DNA of 64,000 bases, from the NCBI RefSeq assembly GCF_913063105.1, contig NZ_CAJXYQ010000013.1:62001-126000 (forward strand), read 5' to 3'. The position numbers were made by a program, and so were the translations under genes. This document shows positions 23,407 to 40,929 of this stretch, piece after piece; position 1 is the first letter of the stretch, and every line of letters begins with the position of its first letter. The notes under the pieces are model-generated. The model did not search any database, had not been told where the DNA came from, and worked only from the letters and a program-made list of their open reading frames with translations. Source of the DNA: an uncultured Draconibacterium sp. GTDB taxonomy: Bacteria; Bacteroidota; Bacteroidia; Bacteroidales; Prolixibacteraceae.

Positions 23407-24369
23407 ATGAATTTTAAAAACGACGTTGAAGCTTTGGATACTCTGCAGGCGAAATACCAGGACCTGAAGCAGGAAATAACAACCGTAATATACGGGCAGG
23501 ATGACATTGTAAAACAAGTACTTATTTCGCTGTTCAGCAAAGGACACGTTCTGCTAATTGGTGTTCCGGGACTGGCAAAAACACTACTGGTTACCACCAT
23601 TGCTAAAATTTTGGGGTTAAACTACAACCGCATACAATTTACGCCCGACCTTATGCCGTCGGATATTATAGGCACCGAAATTCTGGATAACGAACGAAAC
23701 TTTAAATTTATACAGGGCCCTTTATTTGCCAATATTATTCTGGCCGACGAAATTAACCGTACCCCTCCAAAAACCCAATCGGCATTGCTCGAAGCCATGC
23801 AGGAACGTGCAGTAACTGCTGCCGGTCAGCATTTCGAACTCGATCGTCCGTTTTTTGTACTGGCCACTCAAAACCCCATTGAGCAGGAAGGAACCTATCC
23901 CCTGCCTGAAGCACAGCTCGACCGTTTTATGTTTTCGGTATGGCTTGACTACCCAAAACTGGAAGACGAAATTACCATTGTAAAAAATACAACCACCATA
24001 CAAAACACCGAGTTAAAACCGGTTATTTCAGGTAAAGAAATTCTTTACTTTCAAGACCTTATTCGTAAAATTCCGGTAAACGACAATGTGCTGCGTTATG
24101 CCGTTACTCTGGCTGCCAAAACACGCCCCGAGAGCGAAAATGCCGCCGAAATTTCAAAACAGTACCTAAAATGGGGAGCCGGACCTCGTGCTTCGCAATA
24201 CCTGGTATTGGGCGCCAAAACCCATGCTGCCCTTAACGGAAAGTACTCGCCCGATATTGAAGATGTAAAAGCCATTGCACCCTCAATTTTACGACACCGC
24301 ATTATAAAAAACTACAAAGCCGAAGCTGAAAACATTTCAATCGACCAAATCATCGACAAACTGCTTTAA
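23407..24369 (+). CDS. MoxR-family AAA+ ATPase
   Basis: 320 residues. Walker A is GVPGLAKT (near residue 59), Walker B is ILADEINRTPPKTQSALLEAM (split here: ILADEIN binds metal, the rest is the MoxR signature), followed by sensor motif LATQNPIEQEGTYPLPEAQ and the C-terminal AAA lid (GAGPRASQYL). MoxR ATPases act as chaperones for maturation of protein complexes, often with VWA-domain proteins. No VWA or DUF58 gene follows here: the next gene, overlapping by one base, is OstA-like, so this copy sits in an envelope-biogenesis operon. Confidence 0.95.
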   Translation: MNFKNDVEALDTLQAKYQDLKQEITTVIYGQDDIVKQVLISLFSKGHVLLIGVPGLAKTLLVTTIAKILGLNYNRIQFTPDLMPSDIIGTEILDNERNFKFIQGPLFANIILADEINRTPPKTQSALLEAMQERAVTAAGQHFELDRPFFVLATQNPIEQEGTYPLPEAQLDRFMFSVWLDYPKLEDEITIVKNTTTIQNTELKPVISGKEILYFQDLIRKIPVNDNVLRYAVTLAAKTRPESENAAEISKQYLKWGAGPRASQYLVLGAKTHAALNGKYSPDIEDVKAIAPSILRHRIIKNYKAEAENISIDQIIDKLL

Positions 24370-25952
24370 TGCTGCTTATCAAAATTTATAAAAACGTTGT
24401 TTCGCGCAATTTTATGCTTTTTGCGCTCTTGCTGGTACTTACCTTTGTAGCCGGCACTACCTCTGCACAACAGAAAAAACGGGTGGAAATTTTACAGGCA
24501 GAATCACTGGAACAAAGCCAGGAAATTGCCAACGCCCAACGCCTGATTAACAATGTAATTATTCGCCATCAGGACATTTTAATGTACTGCGACAGCGCAT
24601 ACACATACGAGGGCACCAACCGGGTAGACGCATTTGGCAACGTTCATATTAACCAGGCTGATACGCTGCACCTTTATGCCCGTAAAGTTTATTACGATGG
24701 CGACAGAAGTTTTGCCCAGGCCATCAACAATGTAAAGCTGGTGAATACGGAGATGACACTATACACCGACACATTGGATTACGACATGAATTTAAATGTT
24801 GGTTACTATGATTGTTTCGGAAAAATTGTAGACAGCACGAACACACTTACAAGCAAAGTAGGGAAATACTACCTTGATGACAACACCGCCCACTTTACCG
24901 ATAGCGTGGTGGGATTTAGCCATAAATACACCATCAACAGCGAAGACCTTCGTTACAACACCCAAACCGAAGTAATCTTTTTTAAAGGTCCAACCACCAT
25001 TCGCGACTCGGTTAATACGCTTTATGCCGAAGATGGCTGGTACAACACCCAAAGCGGAGAGGCCGATCTGACTTTACGCCCCATGGTTTTCAACGAAACC
25101 CAATCGATACAAGCCAGGCAAATCAGCTACAACCAGGAAAACGGCGATGGTTATGCCATCGGAAACGTACACATTGAAGACTTTGATAACCGTACCATAA
25201 TAAAAGGTAACAGTGTTATTTATAACGATTTGAATGAAACAGCAACCGCAAGCGACTCGGCGGTGTTTATATCGTACAACGAAACCGACAGCCTTTTTTT
25301 GCATGCCGACACGCTAAAAAGTATTCCGGACACCATTGAAGGCGAAAACCTGGTGATGGCCTATTACGGTGTACGTTTTTTCCGTACCGACGTGCAGGGC
25401 ATTTGCGACTCGCTGATGTATTACACCAAAGACTCGCTGGTGGAATTACACAACAACCCGGTAATCTGGAGCGACCAACACCAACTCAGCGCCAATTACA
25501 TTGAGATGATACAGCACACCAACGCGCCCAATGAAATGCACCTGATGAAAAACAGTTTTATTATCTCGAAGCAAGATTCGGGGCGTTTCGACCAAATTAA
25601 GGGAAAAGACATGATTGGCTATATAATTAACGGAAAGCTGAATAACATTGATGTTGACGGCAACGGCCAAACCTTATATTACGCCCGCGATAAGGAAGCA
25701 GTTATTGGTTTAAACAGAGCCGAAAGCAGTAATATTGCTATCCGTTTTAAAGAAGGCAAAATTCACTCCATTGCCTTTCAAAAACAACCCGAAGGACAAC
25801 TAAAACCCATCCTGAAACTCGACGAAAGCGAAAAAACACTGCCCGGTTTCGAGTGGAAAATAAACCTTCGACCTTTATCTAAAAACGATATTTTCTGGAG
25901 ACCGAAAAAGAAAGATGTTTCTCCAGAGCAAGATATTGTTACTGAGCAATAG
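24369..25952 (+). CDS. OstA-like (LptA/LptD N-terminal-type) envelope protein
   Basis: 527 residues with an N-terminal hydrophobic signal (about 13-34, ending TTSAQ). Repeating short beta strands (ILMYCDSAYTYEGTNRVDAFGNVHI, NEDLRYN-type units, AIGNVHIEDFDN) match the OstA-like jelly-roll repeat that carries lipopolysaccharide across the periplasm in LptA and the N-terminal part of LptD. No barrel domain follows, so it is not a full LptD. The likely role is LPS transport; this is inferred from fold and from its place after the SurA-type genes. Starts at the ATG overlapping the moxR stop (TAATG). Confidence 0.85.
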   Translation: MLLIKIYKNVVSRNFMLFALLLVLTFVAGTTSAQQKKRVEILQAESLEQSQEIANAQRLINNVIIRHQDILMYCDSAYTYEGTNRVDAFGNVHINQADTLHLYARKVYYDGDRSFAQAINNVKLVNTEMTLYTDTLDYDMNLNVGYYDCFGKIVDSTNTLTSKVGKYYLDDNTAHFTDSVVGFSHKYTINSEDLRYNTQTEVIFFKGPTTIRDSVNTLYAEDGWYNTQSGEADLTLRPMVFNETQSIQARQISYNQENGDGYAIGNVHIEDFDNRTIIKGNSVIYNDLNETATASDSAVFISYNETDSLFLHADTLKSIPDTIEGENLVMAYYGVRFFRTDVQGICDSLMYYTKDSLVELHNNPVIWSDQHQLSANYIEMIQHTNAPNEMHLMKNSFIISKQDSGRFDQIKGKDMIGYIINGKLNNIDVDGNGQTLYYARDKEAVIGLNRAESSNIAIRFKEGKIHSIAFQKQPEGQLKPILKLDESEKTLPGFEWKINLRPLSKNDIFWRPKKKDVSPEQDIVTEQ

Positions 25953-26137
25953 GTATTAAGGCTTGACATCAGTCGCTGAACATTTTATATTGATGAAACT
26001 TTTGCATTCAACAAAAGTTACTTCAATGTTAACACAAAACAGACATTTCGGTATTATTCTTCTTTTTTTAAGAAAAAACAGGCTTTTCATTTTCATTTTA
26101 AAATAATATTTTCATATTTGCAGCAAATCATAAGCAA
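25953..26137. other. Intergenic region between the OstA-like gene and the leucine leader
   Basis: AT-rich, with no open frame or clear terminator for the upstream operon. It contains the putative promoter described next. Confidence 0.5.
26091..26120 (+). promoter_or_regulatory. Weak putative promoter of the leucine operon
   Basis: TTTC at 26091-26094, 18-base spacer, and CATATTTG at 26113-26120, matching seven of eight positions of TAnnTTTG. Transcription would start near 26127, just before the leader peptide. Confidence 0.35.
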
Positions 26138-26209
26138 ATGACAAAAAATATCAACATTTCTCTTCTTAGCCTCATTATTGGTATTCTTCTTCTAACAAGA
26201 CAGAATTGA
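26138..26209 (+). CDS. leuL: Leucine/isoleucine leader peptide of the leu operon
   Basis: A 23-residue open frame from ATG 26138 to TGA 26207-26209. It holds six Leu codons (residues 9, 10, 12, 17, 18, 19) and five Ile codons (5, 7, 13, 14, 16), far above chance, and precedes a mutually exclusive antiterminator/terminator pair in front of leuA. A ribosome stalled at the Leu17-19 run would leave the antiterminator strand starting at the stop codon free; a ribosome reaching the stop would cover it. This is the classical logic of ribosome-mediated attenuation. The gene symbol is by analogy with the enteric leuL, to which it need not be homologous. Confidence 0.85.
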   Translation: MTKNINISLLSLIIGILLLTRQN

Positions 26210-26255
26210 GAATGGTGTGTTGATTAACGATATTGGAATAAAGAAGCCATTCTCA
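26207..26255 (+). promoter_or_regulatory. Antiterminator of the leu operon attenuator
   Basis: TGAGAATGG at 26207-26215 is the exact reverse complement of CCATTCTCA at 26247-26255. The right arm is shared with the terminator stem, so the two structures exclude each other. The left arm begins with the leader peptide stop codon. Confidence 0.82.
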
Positions 26256-26274
26256 CATTGAGGATGGCTTTTTT
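26244..26274 (+). terminator. Attenuator terminator of the leu operon
   Basis: An 11-base-pair stem, AAGCCATTCTC (26244-26254) with GAGGATGGCTT (26260-26270), including one G-U pair, loop of five bases, running into six T (26269-26274). It ends 55 bases before the leuA ATG. Confidence 0.88.
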
Positions 26275-26329: not shown

Positions 26330-27835
26330 ATGAGCGACAGACTTTACATTTTCGACACAACTTTAAGAGACGGCGAACAGGTGCCGGGTTGCCAGTTGAA
26401 CACGGTAGAAAAGATTGAAGTTGCCAAAGCATTGCAGGAATTGGGAGTAGATGTTATTGAGGCAGGATTCCCTATTTCGAGCCCAGGCGATTTTGAATCG
26501 GTAGTAGAGATTTCGAAAGCGGTTACATGGCCAACAATTACAGCCTTAACCCGCGCAGTACAAAAAGACATTGACGTTGCAGCCGAATCACTCAAATACG
26601 CTAAAAAAGGGCGCATCCATACAGGTATCGGAACATCTGATTTTCATATTTACCACAAACTCAACTCAAATCCTGATGCCATTTTAGAACGTGGGGTTGA
26701 GGCTGTTAAGTACGCTAAGAAATACGTTGAAGACGTAGAGTTTTATGCCGAAGATGCCGGACGTACCGGTAACGAATACCTGGCCCGTGTTATTGAGGCG
26801 GTTATTAAAGCCGGTGCTACAGTTGTAAATATTCCTGACACTACAGGTTACACGCTTCCTCACGAATTTGGAGCAAAAATCAAATACCTGATGGACAACG
26901 TGCCAAACATTCATAAGGCCATCATTTCAACTCACTGCCACAACGACCTTGGTATGGCCACTGCCAACACCATTTCGGGCATTCTTAATGGCGCACGCCA
27001 GGCTGAAGTTACCATTAACGGTATTGGTGAACGTGCCGGTAACACTTCGTTGGAAGAAGTGGTAATGACCTTAAAAACGCATTATAAAGCACTGGGTATT
27101 GAAACCGGAGTAAACACTCAGAAAATTTATGGAACCAGCCGACTGGTTTCTACTTTAATGAACATGCCGGTGCAACCCAACAAAGCAGTGGTTGGGCGTA
27201 ATGCATTTGCACACTCCTCAGGTATTCATCAGGATGGCGTATTGAAAAACCGCGAGAATTACGAGATTATGGACCCAACTGATGTGGGAATCAACGAATC
27301 GGCAATTCTGTTAACTGCCCGTAGTGGCCGTGCTGCATTAAAACACCGCTTAGAATTGTTGGGCTTTGAGCTGGATAAAGAAAAGCTGGATGAAGTTTAC
27401 GAAGAATTTTTGAATCTGGCCGATAAGAAAAAAGACATTCGTGATGACGATATTGCCTTGCTCGTTGGCGATGCAACCCGTAAAGAACGTCGGATAAAAC
27501 TGGACTACCTGCAAGTGGTTTCAGGAAAAAGTCTGAAACCCATGGCAACAGTTCGTTTGGACATTGCAGGCGAAAAATTTGATGCCACCTCTGCCGGAAA
27601 CGGCCCTGTTGATGCAGCCATCTCTGCCGTTAAACAAATTATTCACCGCCAGGTTATAATTGAAGAATTCCTAGTACAGGCGATTACTCGTGGCAGCGAC
27701 GATATTGGGAAAGTACACATGCAGGTAGATTATCAGGACAAAATGTACCACGGCTTTGGTGCACACACCGATATTATCACCGCATCAGTTGAAGCTTTTC
27801 TTGATGCAATAAACAAATTGCCTGTAGCAGAATAA
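26330..27835 (+). CDS. leuA: 2-isopropylmalate synthase
   Basis: 501 residues. It condenses 2-ketoisovalerate with acetyl-CoA, the first step of leucine synthesis. The HMGL-like barrel starts [15 protein letters not shown]; metal binding by [15 protein letters not shown] near residue 200 and the GIGERAGN motif follow. The C-terminal part from about 380 ([21 protein letters not shown]) is the LeuA regulatory/dimer domain, which in the family gives feedback inhibition by leucine. It is the first structural gene after the attenuator. The leuC start lies 111 bases downstream, across a REP-like hairpin. Confidence 0.95.
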
Positions 27836-27946: not shown

Positions 27947-29350
27947 ATGACAGCAAAAACATTATTTGATAAAATTTGGGATGCACATGTGGTAAAACAG
28001 GTTGAAGGTGGCCCCAATGTATTGTACATCGACCGACATTTTATACACGAAGTAACCAGCCCGGTTGCCTTTTTAGGACTTAAAAACCGCGGATTAAAAG
28101 TGTATCGCCCGGATCAAACAACAGCAACTCCCGACCATAACGTACCAACCATAAACCAGCACCTGTCGATAAAAGACGAACTATCGCGCAACCAGGTGGA
28201 GATGTTAAAAAAGAACTGTGCCGAAAATGGCATTACCTACCACGGTTTAGGAACCGAAGGACACGGCGTTGTACATATTATTGGCCCAGAAATGGGACTG
28301 ACACAACCGGGTATGACCATAGTTTGTGGCGATAGCCATACTTCCACCCACGGTGCATTTGGCGCCATTGCTTTTGGTATTGGCACCAGCGAGGTAGAAA
28401 TGGTTTTGGCCAGCCAGTGTATTATGCAGCCTAAACCCAAAAAAATGCGCATAACCATTAACGGACAACTAGATAAAGGTGTTACAGCAAAAGATATCGC
28501 GCTATTTATCATTTCTAAAATATCAACAAGCGGCGGTACCGGCCACTTTATCGAGTATGCCGGATCGGCTATCACCAGCCTGTCAATGGAAGGCCGCATG
28601 ACCCTTTGTAACCTGAGTATTGAAAGTGGTGCCCGTGGCGGAATGATTGCGCCCGACGAAACTACATTTAGCTATGTGAAAGGCCGCCAGTTTGCACCTC
28701 AGGGAGCCGATTGGGATAAAGCAATGAAAAAATGGACCGAATTAAAAACCGATGAAGGAGCTGCATTCGATACAGAATACACCTTTGAGGCGGCCGATAT
28801 TGAGCCGATGATTACCTACGGTACAAACCCGGGAATGGGAATTGGTGTTTCACAGACTATTCCAACTTCAGAAGGTTTGTCGGGAACAGATAAAACAACT
28901 TATCAGAAGTCGTTGCAATACATGGGTTATAACGAAGGTGAAGCCATGAAAGGGAAACCTGTGGATTATGTATTTCTGGGTAGCTGTACCAACGGAAGAA
29001 TTGAAGACTTCCGTGAATTTGCCAGCTTTGTAAAAGGCAAGAAAAAAGCCGATAACGTTACAGCATGGCTGGTACCCGGATCAAAACAAGTACAAAACCA
29101 AATTGAGGCCGAAGGCCTGGTTCCGATTCTGGAAGAAGCCGGTTTTGAGTTGCGTCAACCGGGTTGCTCAGCCTGTTTGGCAATGAACGACGATAAAATT
29201 CCTGCGGGAAAATACGCTGTTTCAACATCAAACCGAAACTTCGAAGGCCGCCAGGGACCGGGAGCACGCACCTTGCTTGCCAGCCCGTTAACCGCAGCAG
29301 CAGCCGCAGTGTCTGGTGTAATTGCCGACCCGAGAGAGCTGATGGAATAG
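27947..29350 (+). CDS. leuC: 3-isopropylmalate dehydratase large subunit
   Basis: 467 residues of the aconitase family. With LeuD it isomerises 2- to 3-isopropylmalate and, in organisms with citramalate synthase, also citramalate to 3-methylmalate. Substrate-site motif [20 protein letters not shown] is near residue 128, and the 4Fe-4S ligands lie in [14 protein letters not shown] near 346 and GCSACLAMN near 406-409. It begins [15 protein letters not shown] as usual for LeuC. The gene is cut off from leuD by an inserted S23-type gene. Confidence 0.96.
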
Positions 29351-29401: not shown

Positions 29402-29773
29402 ATGTCAACAAGTAATCTGGCAGAATTTAAGGAGAACCTAAAACTTCGGACAAAGAGATTTGCTCACGATTGTGTTAAGTTTTCTCTGGATTTGCCTAAA
29501 AATACGCTTGGAAACCATATTCGGGGGCAATTGATTCGCTGTTCTACTTCTGTTGCTGCAAATTACTGGGCATCCTGTGTTGCGCATACCGTTCCTATGA
29601 TTATTTCCAAACTGAGTATATCAATTGAAGAAGCCGATGAAAGCGAATTCTGGTTAGAATTTGCAGTTGATGAAAAATTAGCGATAAAAGAGCGGACCGA
29701 AAAAATGATCCAGGAGGCTCATGAAATAGCTTCAATACTCATCAAATCTCGTCAAACGCTTCAAAACAGATAA
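29402..29773 (+). CDS. Four-helix-bundle protein of the S23 family
   Basis: 123 residues with the signature of the small four-helix-bundle family first described from 23S rRNA intervening sequences: FAHDCVKFSLDLPKNTLGNHIRGQLIRCSTSVAANY followed by the acidic helix SISIEEADESEFWLEF (both shown only in part in the family model). These genes are scattered through Bacteroidota genomes and their function is unknown. This one splits leuC from leuD in an otherwise canonical operon; its flanks are AT-rich with repeated ATTCTAA/ATTCAAA units, suggesting a mobile or recently acquired cassette. Same strand as the operon, so probably cotranscribed. Confidence 0.85.
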   Translation: MSTSNLAEFKENLKLRTKRFAHDCVKFSLDLPKNTLGNHIRGQLIRCSTSVAANYWASCVAHTVPMIISKLSISIEEADESEFWLEFAVDEKLAIKERTEKMIQEAHEIASILIKSRQTLQNR

Positions 29774-29836: not shown

Positions 29837-30424
29837 ATGGCATACGATAAATTTTCAGTAATAAATACACCGGCAGTACCTCTGCCAATCGAAAACGTTG
29901 ATACCGACCAGATTATTCCTGCACGTTTCCTGAAAGCAGTGGAACGTAAAGGTTTTGGCGATAATCTTTTTCGCGACTGGCGATACGAGAACGATGGAAG
30001 TCCGAAAGCTGATTTCCCTTTGAATAATAAAAAATACACCGGAAAAATTCTGGTTGGCGGAAAAAACTTTGGCAGTGGCTCGAGCCGTGAACATGCCGCA
30101 TGGGCAATTTACGATTACGGGTTCCGAGTGGTAGTATCAAGCTTCTTTGCCGACATTTTTAAGGGCAATGCCTTGAACAACGGACTGCTACCCGTTGTTG
30201 TTTCTCCCGAGTTCCTTGAGAAAATATTTGCTCAGATTGAAAAAGATGCAGACTCAACTTTTGAAGTTGATTTGCCAAACCAAAAATTCACCATAACGGC
30301 AACAGGCGAATCGGTTGATTTTGAGATTAATCCATACAAAAAACACTGTTTACAAAACGGCTTGGATGATATCGATTACCTGGTTGATATGAAAGAGCAG
30401 ATTGCAACTTTTGAAGAGGCATAA
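29837..30424 (+). CDS. leuD: 3-isopropylmalate dehydratase small subunit
   Basis: 195 residues. It forms the swivelling small subunit that completes the LeuC active site. Motifs: [14 protein letters not shown] near residue 20, the substrate-binding loop [18 protein letters not shown] near 77, and [16 protein letters not shown] near 110. Length is normal. Followed after 117 bases by the citramalate synthase-like gene. Confidence 0.96.
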
Positions 30425-30541: not shown

Positions 30542-32122
30542 ATGACAGGCAAAACAATAGAAATTTCAGGTAAGCAACTTACCATTATGGACACCACCCT
30601 TCGCGATGGCGAGCAAACTTCCGGAGTTTCGTTTAGCGAAGGGGAAAAACTCAGTGTGGCAAAGGTTCTGCTTGAAGATGTAAAGGTCGACCGCATTGAA
30701 ATTGCTTCGGCACGGGTGTCGGAAGGCGAATTTAAAGGCACCCAAAAAGTGATGCGTTGGGCAGCTCAAAAGGGGCATCTCGATAAGGTTGAAGTACTTG
30801 GCTTTGTTGACGGAAAAATTTCGCTGGAATGGATTGCCAAAGCCGGTGGAAAAGTGTTGAATTTGCTGTGCAAAGGGTCGTATAAACACGTAACCGAGCA
30901 ACTGCGAAAAACACCCGAAGAACACGTTGCCGATATTAAGGAGGTAATTAACTTTGCCGATGAGATGGGCATTAGCGTAAACATCTACCTGGAAGATTGG
31001 TCGAATGGAATGCGTAACTCGAAAGACTATGTTCATTTTATGATTGCCCAGCTGAAGGATGAGAAAATTGAGCGTTTTATGCTTCCCGATACGCTGGGTA
31101 TACTTGATCCGGATGAAACCTATGACTTCTGTCGCGAAATGATAGAAAGTTTCCCTGATGTGGAGTTTGATTTTCATGCACACAACGATTACGACCTTGC
31201 CATTGCCAACGTATTTCACGCCATTAAAGCCGGTATGCGCTGTGTTCACACCACGGTTAACGGCCTTGGCGAAAGAGCCGGTAATGCTCCATTATCGAGT
31301 GTAATTGCAACGGTAAAAGATCACCTGAAGATGAAAACCAATGTTAAAGAAGGTGAACTTAACAAGGTTTCAAAACTTGTTGAATCGTTTTCAGGCATCC
31401 GAATACCCACTAACAAACCACTTATCGGCGAATTTGTATTTACGCAATGCAGTGGAATTCATGCTGATGGCGATACCAAAAACAACCTGTATTTTAACGA
31501 GTTACTACCTGAGCGTTTTGGCCGCACAAGACAATATGCACTGGGAAAAACTTCAGGTAAAGCCAATATCAACAAAAATTTAAAAGCACTGGGTATCGAA
31601 CTGGACAAGGCTTCGCTGAAAAAGGTTACCGATAAAATTATAGAGCTTGCCGACCAGAAAGAAACCATTACCAGCGACGAGCTGCCCTACATTGTGGCCG
31701 ATGTACTGGAAAACGATTTCTTTGAACAAAAGGTAAAAGTGGTTAATTACTCGGTTAGCTACACCATGGGATTACGCCCCGTTGCCAATGTTTCGCTCGA
31801 AATTGCCGACAAAATTTACGAAGAATACAGCGATGGCGATGGCCAGTATGATGCGTTTGTAAAAGCCTTGCGAAAAATTTACGAACGGCTCGACAAACAA
31901 TTTCCGATGCTCGTTGACTATGTGGTTACCATTCCTCCGGGAGGAAAAACAAGTGCCCTGGTTGAAACGGTAATTACCTGGCGTAACGATCACGAGTTTA
32001 AAACCAAAGGTCTGCACCCCGACCAGAACGCAGCGGCTATTTTAGCAACCATCAGAATGTTAAACGTTATTGAAAACGAATTTGACGCTACAAAACTAGA
32101 AGAATTTAAAAACGAAGAATAA
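30542..32122 (+). CDS. cimA: Citramalate synthase-like HMGL enzyme with LeuA regulatory domain
   Basis: 526 residues, a second LeuA-type paralogue. The barrel starts [18 protein letters not shown] (residues about 16-33) and has the metal site FHAHNDYDLAIANVF and VNGLGERAGN. The C-terminal domain (SVSYTMGLRPVANVSLEI onward) is of the LeuA dimer type. It is more distant from LeuA than expected for a duplicate and lies in a leu operon with leuB; related proteins make citramalate from pyruvate and acetyl-CoA for isoleucine synthesis. The family also includes homocitrate and re-citrate synthases, so the substrate is an inference supported by the Ile codons in the leader. Confidence 0.72.
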   Translation: MTGKTIEISGKQLTIMDTTLRDGEQTSGVSFSEGEKLSVAKVLLEDVKVDRIEIASARVSEGEFKGTQKVMRWAAQKGHLDKVEVLGFVDGKISLEWIAKAGGKVLNLLCKGSYKHVTEQLRKTPEEHVADIKEVINFADEMGISVNIYLEDWSNGMRNSKDYVHFMIAQLKDEKIERFMLPDTLGILDPDETYDFCREMIESFPDVEFDFHAHNDYDLAIANVFHAIKAGMRCVHTTVNGLGERAGNAPLSSVIATVKDHLKMKTNVKEGELNKVSKLVESFSGIRIPTNKPLIGEFVFTQCSGIHADGDTKNNLYFNELLPERFGRTRQYALGKTSGKANINKNLKALGIELDKASLKKVTDKIIELADQKETITSDELPYIVADVLENDFFEQKVKVVNYSVSYTMGLRPVANVSLEIADKIYEEYSDGDGQYDAFVKALRKIYERLDKQFPMLVDYVVTIPPGGKTSALVETVITWRNDHEFKTKGLHPDQNAAAILATIRMLNVIENEFDATKLEEFKNEE

Positions 32123-32199: not shown

Positions 32200-33264
32200 A
32201 TGAAACTGAACATCGCATTACTTCCCGGCGACGGGATAGGTCCTGAAATTATCGATCAGGCAATGAAAGCAGTGAAAGCTGTTGCAAGCAAATTTAATCA
32301 CGATTTAAAATATACTGAAGCTTTAACCGGTGCCACTGCCATCGACCAGGTAGGCGATCCTTATCCCGAAGAAACGCACGAGTTGTGCATGCAATCGGAT
32401 GCCGTGCTTTTTGGTGCCATTGGCGACCCAAAATTCGACAATAACCCAAAAGCTAAGGTGCGCCCGGAACAAGGCCTTCTGGCCATGCGTAAAAAACTTG
32501 GTTTGTACGCCAACATTCGCCCGGTAGAAACTTTTGAATCGTTGTTGCACAAATCACCACTTCGCCGCGAGTTGGTTGAAGGTGCTGACTTTGTTTGTAT
32601 ACGTGAGTTAACCGGTGGTATGTATTTTGGCGATAAAGGCCGCAAAGACAACGGCAACACCGCTTTCGATACCTGCATTTACACCCGCGAAGAGGTTGAA
32701 CGTATTTTAAAACTCGGTTACGAATTTGCAGCAAAACGCAATAAAAAACTTACTGTGGTTGATAAAGCAAATGTATTGGAGAGTTCGCGTTTATGGCGCG
32801 AAGTGGCTCAGGAAATGGCGCCAAACTATCCGGAGATTACCACCGAATACATGTTTGTTGATAATGCAGCCATGCAAATTATTCAGTGGCCCAAAAACTT
32901 TGACGTAATGGTTACCGAAAATATGTTTGGCGACATCCTTACTGATGAAGCCAGCGTAATTACCGGTTCGCTTGGGTTGCTGCCATCGGCTTCGGTTGGT
33001 ATTCATACTTCGGTATTCGAACCCATCCATGGTTCGTACCCGCAAGCCGCCGGAAAAGACATTGCCAACCCCATTGCAACCATTCTTTCGGCAGCCATGA
33101 TGTTTGAATATGCCTTCGACCTGAAAGAAGAAGGTAAGCTAATTCGTGATGCTGTAGCTGCCTCGATGGCAGAAGGATTTGTTACTGAAGATATTGCCGA
33201 AGGGCCTGCGCAAGGTACAGCGGCTGTAGGTGACTGGATTGCCGACTGGATTACTAAAAATTAG
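32200..33264 (+). CDS. leuB: 3-isopropylmalate dehydrogenase
   Basis: 354 residues. It oxidatively decarboxylates 3-isopropylmalate with NAD+, and in the citramalate route it also handles 3-methylmalate. The protein starts [14 protein letters not shown]; substrate Arg residues are in [13 protein letters not shown]; the signature [15 protein letters not shown] binds Mg2+ and NAD(H); and [15 protein letters not shown] is near the C terminus. Last gene of the operon, ending at a strong terminator. In enteric bacteria leuB follows leuA; here it is last. Confidence 0.96.
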
Positions 33265-39666: not shown

Positions 39667-40929
39667 ATGACAATAGTAAAAACATATTTCCCTCAGCTTC
39701 AAGACATAACAAAGGCAAAACACAATCTCAGCGAAATTGTGTTACAAACCCCGCTTCAGAAAAACCTAAACCTATCAGAAGAATTTAATGCCAACATATT
39801 TTTAAAACGCGAAGACCTACAAATTGTACGCTCGTACAAAATCAGGGGTGCCTACAATAAAATTGCCCAGCTAACCGAAGCCGAGCAAAAAAAAGGAGTG
39901 GTTTGTGCCAGTGCCGGGAACCATGCACAAGGGGTTGCCTACTCGTGCAGACTGTTGGGTATTGAAGGCAAAATTTACATGCCATCAACCACGCCCAAAC
40001 AAAAAATAAAGCAGGTAAAAATGTTCGGAAAAACCCATGTGGAGGTGGTACTTACCGGCGACACTTATGACGATGCTTACTACGCAGCATTGGAGGATGC
40101 GAAAAAAACAAGCATGGCTTTCATTCATCCCTTTGATGATGCCCAAATCATTGAAGGGCAGGCAACGGTTGGCCTGGAAATACTTCAGGATTCGAAAGAA
40201 ACCATCGACTATTTGTTTATCCCTATTGGCGGAGGAGGCCTGGCAGCAGGCGTTGGAGCCTATTTTAAACAGATTAGTCCGGGCACAAAAATAATTGGCG
40301 TAGAGCCGGCCGGAGCTCCGTCGATGCAAAAATCGCTTGAAGCAAATAAAGTGCTTACCCTGGAGAAAATAGACAAATTTGTTGATGGTGCTGCGGTGCA
40401 ACGGGTGGGCAACATTACATTCGAAATTTGCAAGCAGGTGGTGGATAACTATCAGTCGGTACCCGAAGGGAAGATTTGCACAAAAATACTCGAGCTTTAT
40501 AACCGCGATGCCATTGTTATTGAACCGGCCGGGGCGCTGTCGATTGCCGCCCTCGATTTTTTCCGAGAACAGATAAAAGGCAAAAATGTAGTTTGTGTTG
40601 TTAGCGGAAGTAATAACGACATCACCCGCACCGAAGAAATAAAAGAACGATCGTTGCTTTACGAGGGACTGAAACATTATTTTATTGTTCGATTCCCTCA
40701 ACGAGCCGGAGCGCTTCGTACCTTTGTTGATGTAGTTTTGGGCCCCACCGATGACGTCACTCATTTTGAATATTCAAAAAAAACCAATCGCGAAAAAGGG
40801 CCGGCTGTAATAGGTATTGAGGTTCAGAACAAAGAAGATTTTAACGGCTTGGTAAAACGCATGGAAGAGCATGGTTTTATCTACGAATACCTGAACGAGA
40901 AACCTGATTTGTTCCAGTTTCTCATTTAA
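39667..40929 (+). CDS. ilvA: Threonine ammonia-lyase (threonine dehydratase)
   Basis: 420 residues, the short biosynthetic form. It deaminates threonine to 2-oxobutanoate for isoleucine synthesis. The PLP lysine lies in VRSYKIRGAYNKI near residue 59, with ASAGNHAQGVAYS and the phosphate-binding loop PIGGGGLAAGVG near 190, and a C-terminal ACT-like domain (RFPQRAGALRTFVDVVL, about 340-420) that may sense isoleucine. The genome segment thus encodes both a threonine and possibly a citramalate entry to isoleucine. Single gene. Confidence 0.94.
   Translation: MTIVKTYFPQLQDITKAKHNLSEIVLQTPLQKNLNLSEEFNANIFLKREDLQIVRSYKIRGAYNKIAQLTEAEQKKGVVCASAGNHAQGVAYSCRLLGIEGKIYMPSTTPKQKIKQVKMFGKTHVEVVLTGDTYDDAYYAALEDAKKTSMAFIHPFDDAQIIEGQATVGLEILQDSKETIDYLFIPIGGGGLAAGVGAYFKQISPGTKIIGVEPAGAPSMQKSLEANKVLTLEKIDKFVDGAAVQRVGNITFEICKQVVDNYQSVPEGKICTKILELYNRDAIVIEPAGALSIAALDFFREQIKGKNVVCVVSGSNNDITRTEEIKERSLLYEGLKHYFIVRFPQRAGALRTFVDVVLGPTDDVTHFEYSKKTNREKGPAVIGIEVQNKEDFNGLVKRMEEHGFIYEYLNEKPDLFQFLI

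Follow-up and report, generated by a model that had tools for sequence, protein, structure and literature searches.

The leucine operon of an uncultured Draconibacterium sp. is very probably preceded by a transcription attenuator of the classical ribosome-mediated type, sensing both Leu-tRNA and Ile-tRNA. A first-pass annotation had proposed this logic of amino acid attenuation for positions 26138–26274 of the 64,000-nt stretch of DNA that was analysed (the window), and the leader open reading frame (ORF), the mutually exclusive pairings, the ribosome geometry, the conservation and the codon bias described below all support it. Re-reading of the letters upheld the 23-codon leader ORF (26138–26209, forward strand, like all features of the leader and operon given here; MTKNINISLLSLIIGILLLTRQN, then the stop codon) with six Leu and five Ile codons, the last Leu codon standing five codons before the stop. 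The chance of finding at least 11 Leu or Ile among 22 residues is 3e-4, based on the window composition alone. It likewise upheld the antiterminator arm 2 (TGAGAATGG, 26207–26215), which opens with the leader stop codon, and its exact complement CCATTCTCA (26247–26255), the two giving 9 bp plus a tenth G-U pair; the whole 5′ arm is TGAGAATGGT (26207–26216). Arm 3 (AAGCCATTCTCA, 26244–26255) serves both as the 3′ arm of the antiterminator and as the 5′ arm of the terminator, whose stem AAGCCATTCTC/GAGGATGGCTT (26244–26254/26260–26270) has the 11 bp proposed, one of them G-U. The statement that six T follow this stem needed correction: of the T at 26269–26274, two already lie in the stem and four follow it (arm 4 with the T run, GAGGATGGCTTTTTT, 26260–26274). 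Upstream, a promoter-like block (TTTTCATTTT ... ATATTTGC, 26084–26121) approximately 17–54 nt before the leader start appears conserved in relatives, as judged by eye from 19 of 83 upstream stretches, and may be the promoter; the strict box TANNTTTG, which we take to be the Bacteroidota −7 consensus, was not enriched upstream of the leaders (4/83 versus 3% in a shuffled control).

The attenuator stands before a biosynthetic operon for the amino acids that it would sense. This operon comprises leuA for 2-isopropylmalate synthase (26330–27835; TIGR00973, 686 bits, cut-off 599), leuC (27947–29350; TIGR00170, 659 bits, over the cut-off), a four-helix-bundle protein gene (29402–29773; TIGR02436) between leuC and leuD, leuD (29837–30424; TIGR00171, 194 bits, over the cut-off), a citramalate-synthase-like (cimA-like) gene (30542–32122) and leuB (32200–33264; TIGR00169, 454 bits, over the cut-off). 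The citramalate route to isoleucine can also use LeuB, LeuC and LeuD, and an operon with cimA therefore makes parts of both pathways. The first-pass annotation had argued that sensing of Leu and Ile fits a leu operon that holds a citramalate-synthase-like gene; the gene content agrees with this, while the best match of that gene, NF042433 for (R)-citramalate synthase CimA, reaches 671 bits against a cut-off of 950, and the tie between leader Ile codons and cimA is suggestive only (see below). A threonine ammonia-lyase, IlvA (39667–40929; TIGR02079, 666 bits), lies 6.4 kb downstream of leuB and could be another source of 2-oxobutyrate; isoleucine therefore may not depend on citramalate alone.

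Folding of the leader RNA gave a minimum-energy structure that holds the terminator, its stem reaching 16 bp there, together with a further helix, P1, which pairs ATCAACAT (26150–26157, within leader codons 5–7) with GTGTTGAT (26217–26224), the eight bases directly after arm 2. Both the whole leader (z = −3.64) and its terminator part (z = −3.90) fold better than expected, with 0/200 shuffles as good; the region before the terminator, on its own, was no better than shuffles (z = −0.19). A simple terminator scan of the window did not list the 26244–26270 hairpin, we think because its stem runs into the T run. When the window's own RNA is folded, arm 2 pairs with a stretch of Leu codons (CTCTTCTTA, 26160–26168, leader nt 23–31) and not with the arm 1 drawn from the alignment. 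This arm 1, ATTCTT (26183–26188), is an Ile-Leu codon pair and a potential partner of arm 2, but in the minimum-energy fold it pairs elsewhere. For a protector (1:2) structure there are thus the compensatory pairs of P1 and an arm 2 that is paired in the fold; arm 2 has no settled partner, and this half alone behaves much like shuffled sequence.

What happens in the cell, namely leader translation, stalling, termination, read-through and the response to starvation, we infer as follows. Leader RNA that is not translated would adopt the protector structure, with P1 formed and arm 2 on the Leu/Ile codon stretch, and the terminator 3:4 would form. With ample Leu and Ile, the ribosome would run on to the stop codon and hide arm 2 under its footprint; the 3:4 terminator would then form and end transcription near 26274. 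A shortage of charged Leu- or Ile-tRNA would instead stall the ribosome on the leader codons; even a stall at the last control codon, five codons before the stop, would just leave arm 2 free, and free arm 2 would capture arm 3 before arm 4 is made, letting RNA polymerase read into leuACD-cimA-leuB. The folds computed for these states run parallel: if the ribosome is stalled at the last Leu, the unoccupied RNA as far as arm 3 adopts the antiterminator fold (−14.4 kcal/mol), and with the ribosome at the stop the remaining free RNA folds as the terminator. Once arm 4 is present, the terminator (−22.0) is more stable than the antiterminator (−18.1), and the choice between arms must therefore be kinetic, as is the choice between folds in textbook attenuators. 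The ribosome's front edge is assumed here to lie 12 nt ahead of its A site. Under a footprint of this size, a ribosome at the stop codon covers arm 2, while stalling at 8–13 Leu/Ile codons per leader leaves it free; in 66/83 leaders, the final Leu/Ile codon precedes the stop by four or five codons. The site joins an ORF rich in codons for the operon's products to exclusive 2:3 and 3:4 pairings, the latter with a U run.

LeuA was detected in 133/140 genomes of the family, the closest among named relatives being those of Maribellus, Draconibacterium and other Prolixibacteraceae, and the 5′ regions of 89 of the 133 were examined. The arm-3 core was found in 79/89 and the complete set of leader ORF, arm 2 (matched at ≥7/9 bases) and arm 3 in 77/89, with the distance from arm 3 to leuA ranging from 47 to 228 nt in other genomes. 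In the two partial cases, the leader frame runs past arm 2 (G138) or the leader is lost (G060). In all 10 regions without the motif, an ilvC- or ilvN-type gene immediately precedes leuA, at 5–209 nt, and was recognised by Pfam in six (five ketol-acid reductoisomerases and one acetolactate synthase small subunit) and by eye in the other four; leuA therefore probably lies within an ilv operon there. G073, one of these genomes, has a match to R1, our model of the leu leader, before its own ilvD.

Covariation of both stems in relatives had been named by the first-pass annotation as the check on its proposal, together with conservation of the Leu/Ile codons. The codons and both stems are indeed conserved, and compensatory changes were found in the terminator and in the additional helix P1; the antiterminator shows none. 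Pairings were scored in an alignment of 82 sequences (A1), drawn from the family regions plus eight named loci after omission of G060 (degenerate), G101 (arm 2 only 7/9, other spacing), G062 and N_L104 (same species, same genome as another row) and G052 (leader like that of G038). In it, the antiterminator is paired in 99.6% of cells versus 38–53% in slid controls, and it lacks covariation of its own because its arms are nearly invariant (CCATTCTC of arm 3 does not vary at all). The terminator is paired in 99.2% of cells with three compensatory pairs, and P1 has changes on both sides in 6/8 pairs, with 74.9% of cells paired and a quarter unpaired. Arm 1 and arm 2 are pairable in 89.8% of cells, with no compensatory change. 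Taken together, the three helices have 73 cells changed on both sides versus 33.5 in shuffles (0/500), while the count of pairs with changes on both sides, 9 versus 7.8, is not above the shuffles (118/500). An unbiased mutual information analysis of A1 returned mostly column pairs unable to base-pair, owing to kinship noise; the terminator pair 131:158 and the P1 pair 24:95 are among the 45 pairs listed. Conservation of the entire peptide is only loose, since pairwise single-nucleotide codon differences among 20 leaders of the same genus comprise 589 synonymous and 649 non-synonymous changes.

Codon statistics were calculated for 83 leaders (the same starting set, without G060, G062, N_L104 and G138). 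Leu makes up 26%, Ile 25% and Val 1% of their residues. They favour CTA, CTC and CTT and avoid TTA/TTG and Val: CTA and CTC account for 54% of leader Leu codons versus 14.5% in the window genes, and TTA/TTG for 6% versus 41%. Further, ATT makes up 163/177 of the Ile codons that immediately precede a Leu, versus 189/269 elsewhere (p = 1.3e-8, ignoring kinship). This ATT preference, with the pairability of ATTCT with arm 2 across most of the alignment, would suit a sensor of Leu only, in which Ile codons are present just because the ATT-CTN pair doubles as an RNA arm. We regard that as unlikely, since the cimA-less loci L157 and L322 keep the ORF, arm 2 and the terminator with no Ile codon, and Ile is thus dispensable for the RNA fold there.

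The relation between Ile codons and operon content was quantified in 134 leuA loci, 80 from the order and 54 named, some of the latter possibly duplicating genomes of our G series. Leaders were called by an ORF plus a hairpin with a Leu+Ile+Val threshold of 0.30, pairing of arm 2 not being required. The original threshold of 0.38 had missed the leader of L322 and was lowered after this leader was seen by eye; other settings were changed at the same time and 20 loci were added. In operons with cimA, two or more Ile codons occur in 74/74 called leaders (29 loci uncalled), whereas 5/6 called leaders of leuA-C-D-B operons without cimA have fewer than two (10 loci uncalled), giving a Fisher p = 2.5e-7 that ignores kinship; the 15 loci of other or incomplete content divide into 2 with Ile, 2 without and 11 uncalled. 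Leaders with at least two Ile codons number 60/60 versus 1/2 at the threshold of 0.38 (p = 0.03), 43/43 versus 1/5 when ≥7 bp of arm 2 are required (p = 2.6e-5) and 44/44 versus 1/5 for the loci of the order only (p = 2.4e-5). The ORF rule also fires on 287/1640 (17.5%) shuffled stretches, so single weak calls may be chance, such as the three Ile-poor calls in family f9 (scores 0.31–0.33; L381 with an arm 2 of ≤5 bp). Two cimA-less leaders are convincing: L157, MQNLSLNTNLSLLSLLLGLLLER, with 11 Leu, no Ile, a 10-bp arm 2 and the terminator kept, and L322, MNTTLLSLSLTSGLTLSK, with 6 Leu, no Ile, an 8-bp arm 2 and the terminator kept. Within one family, the latter (G164, no cimA) can be compared with MNDLLNLFLIFIILVLGLIM of G449, which has cimA. 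The exception, L382 (G143), has leuA-C-D-B without cimA yet an Ile-rich leader, MNKTIIILSIILLA; the LeuA proteins of L382 and L383 read GNQLN where that of the window reads GCQLN. The five Ile-poor leaders occupy three separate positions in a LeuA tree, with L322 next to L324, L157 next to L119/L326 and the f9 trio next to L376, and cimA shows 11 Fitch changes over 118 leaves. Leader Ile codons thus tend to go with cimA in the leu operons of relatives, which is suggestive, not firm.

The remaining alternatives to attenuation by a stalling ribosome fare worse. A protein- or tRNA-binding antiterminator, T-box-like or a riboswitch, that merely overlaps the ORF is very improbable; the arms vary unusually little for a plain attenuator, as such a binding element might explain, yet no Rfam family matches the window at its gathering score, the eight matches at E ≤ 10 include neither Leu_leader nor a T-box, and the best over the site lie far below their cut-offs (STnc150, 34.5 bits against 60; Phe_leader, 19.6 against 55). 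A 2008 survey likewise gives seven Bacteroidetes/Chlorobi genomes as lacking T-boxes (PMC2494555). We would put equally little weight on translational coupling, that is, reinitiation at leuA in place of transcription attenuation: leader genes have been proposed to raise downstream translation by reinitiation at short distances (PMC4833913), but here the leader stop lies 120 nt upstream of leuA with an intrinsic terminator in between, and elsewhere the distance of arm 3 from leuA varies widely, as given above. That the hairpin is only the ordinary terminator of the upstream gene (24369–25952), which ends 185 nt before the leader, next to a chance hydrophobic ORF and with no switching, is scarcely credible, good terminator though it is, given the ORF, the stop codon within arm 2 and the 2:3 complementarity conserved in 77/89 regions, the leader codon bias and the same design before ilvD.

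This design before ilvD is present in the genome of the window itself, where R1 finds the ilvD site (E = 5.2e-7), which lies outside its training set; the gene (TIGR00110, 799 bits) has the Val/Leu/Ile leader MRNLSINIVVLLVVILGNTEKGH. R1 matches 140/393 genomes of the order (E ≤ 0.01), and 23/247 of the class and 24/395 of the phylum (E ≤ 0.001), in sets that overlap, the window's own genome recurring, with weak matches that may be chance and other arm sequences missed. We examined 49 R1 sites in the order, sampling the highest-ranked matches and genomes with several, with G356 counted twice (two identical contigs) and tandem pairs counted as two; 28 precede ilvD (recognised by its N-terminal motif), 17 leuA, 3 gltB and 1 asnA. 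Taking the ORF richest in Leu/Ile/Val as the leader at each site, except before gltB, Val occurs in 28/28 ilvD leaders and at least twice in 23 of them, compared with 5/17 and 2 of the leuA leaders, respectively. Many ilvD sites carry CCTTTCTC as arm 3 instead of CCATTCTC. In L211, L212 and L213 (G496, G433 and G353), two branched-chain leaders with separate terminators stand in tandem before ilvD, and L248 (G1085) has the same layout upstream of a gene that we take to be ilvD-like. The tandem units of G496 and G433 differ in arm 3, CCATTCTC in the first and CCTTTCTC in the second, so cross-pairing would be avoided. In G817, an ilvE-like gene is preceded by two adjacent R1 matches. Salmonella mgtCBR is a known case of leader-peptide attenuators in tandem (PMC3641672).

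Other attenuator-like leaders were found at further amino acid loci. In the window's own genome (loci L260 and L263), hisG has a His leader, MTVLALHHGHHWKIQPSGRL, with a terminator, and a trpE-like gene (434 bits, cut-off 518) has the leader MRTNNNIWWWRSNFLQIS, with three Trp codons in a row and a terminator, for which a search made out no antiterminator arms; no classical leader was found upstream of its aspartokinase-homoserine dehydrogenase gene or its gltB. Nine loci with such leaders have no Rfam match at gathering score. Asn-rich ORFs lie upstream of asnA in 12/15 loci of Bacteroidales family f25 (L274/G448, L276–L281, L283 and L285–L288). Before the asnA (TIGR00669) of L274, two Asn leaders stand in tandem, MTQLLNTNPNNNFNNNLLKWEGFGV followed by one beginning MKRHLNNNNNNRPPPVGNG, each with a terminator-like hairpin, and a second Asn leader form with NNNNNRPPP occurs in 8 of the 15 loci; the pattern suggests asparagine attenuation in tandem, with a polyproline tail. 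The R1 matches before gltB, in genus g87 (L208:18975–19116 of G203, whose gltB matches NF008730; L231 of G527; L241 of G399), have His- and Lys-rich leaders with 3–4 His each, such as MKTKHTSFANKHAYKHNKIVQ. Thr/Ile-rich leaders (MTINNTTIITIITTGINFGGR and similar) with terminators were seen in family f159 of another order of the class (L242–L245 and L252), before a gene that, from its N-terminus, is presumably aspartokinase-like. In other families of the class and phylum (L247, L249, L250 and L251), Ile-rich leaders, some with Val, and terminators precede a gene that we assume, again from the N-terminus, to encode an ilvE-like aminotransferase.

A broader reading, which we hold tentatively and would not call probable, is that translation-coupled attenuators of this kind are re-codable throughout the phylum, their codons rewired along with the operon genes, while the near-invariant leu arms are locked because the Ile-Leu codons can double as the protector strand. 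The rewiring would then take in Ile with cimA, Val with ilvD, Thr/Ile with the aspartokinase-like gene, Asn with asnA, His with hisG and possibly the gltB leaders. If true, it would point to tight coupling of transcription and translation in Bacteroidota, a subject that to our knowledge has been little studied there; and if the link with cimA is true, leader peptides could predict which amino acids an operon makes. A well-conserved and testable example offers a direct handle on how closely ribosomes trail RNA polymerase in this phylum. According to a 2010 paper, leader-peptide attenuation had earlier been shown only in Proteobacteria and Actinobacteria, before the Firmicutes case of that paper (PMC2965389).

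The mechanism itself is textbook, and it is the Bacteroidota leu instance for which we found no detailed prior description among open-licence papers; in that literature the same holds for Bacteroidota leu/ilv attenuators in general, and Lopatovskaya et al. (2010) may contain Bacteroidota predictions. Within the phylum, some sORFs of Bacteroides thetaiotaomicron are described as reminiscent of such leaders (PMC7366714). For Flavobacterium psychrophilum, transcriptome data gave strong clues for leader-peptide attenuation before amino acid operons (PMC9723704), that is, the same kind of mechanism proposed in the same phylum, in a passage that gives no detail of operon, codons or structure. The Corynebacterium ilvBNC attenuator, with a uORF that is conserved according to the title of PMC10272879 (see also PMC11857589), also serves a branched-chain operon, in another phylum and before another operon.

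Among the closest known systems is the enteric leader leuL (Rfam Leu_leader), in which a Leu-codon ORF precedes leuA, followed by 2:3 and 3:4 hairpins and an intrinsic terminator. The window site has the same Leu-codon leader ORF before leuA, alternative hairpins and intrinsic terminator; unlike leuL, it adds Ile codons, and its stop codon opens arm 2. The enteric ilvGMEDA leader senses Ile, Leu and Val, and the thr leader Thr and Ile. Like these, the window leader would sense more than one amino acid through a single peptide, but it combines Leu and Ile without Val and stands before a leu operon with a cimA-like gene.
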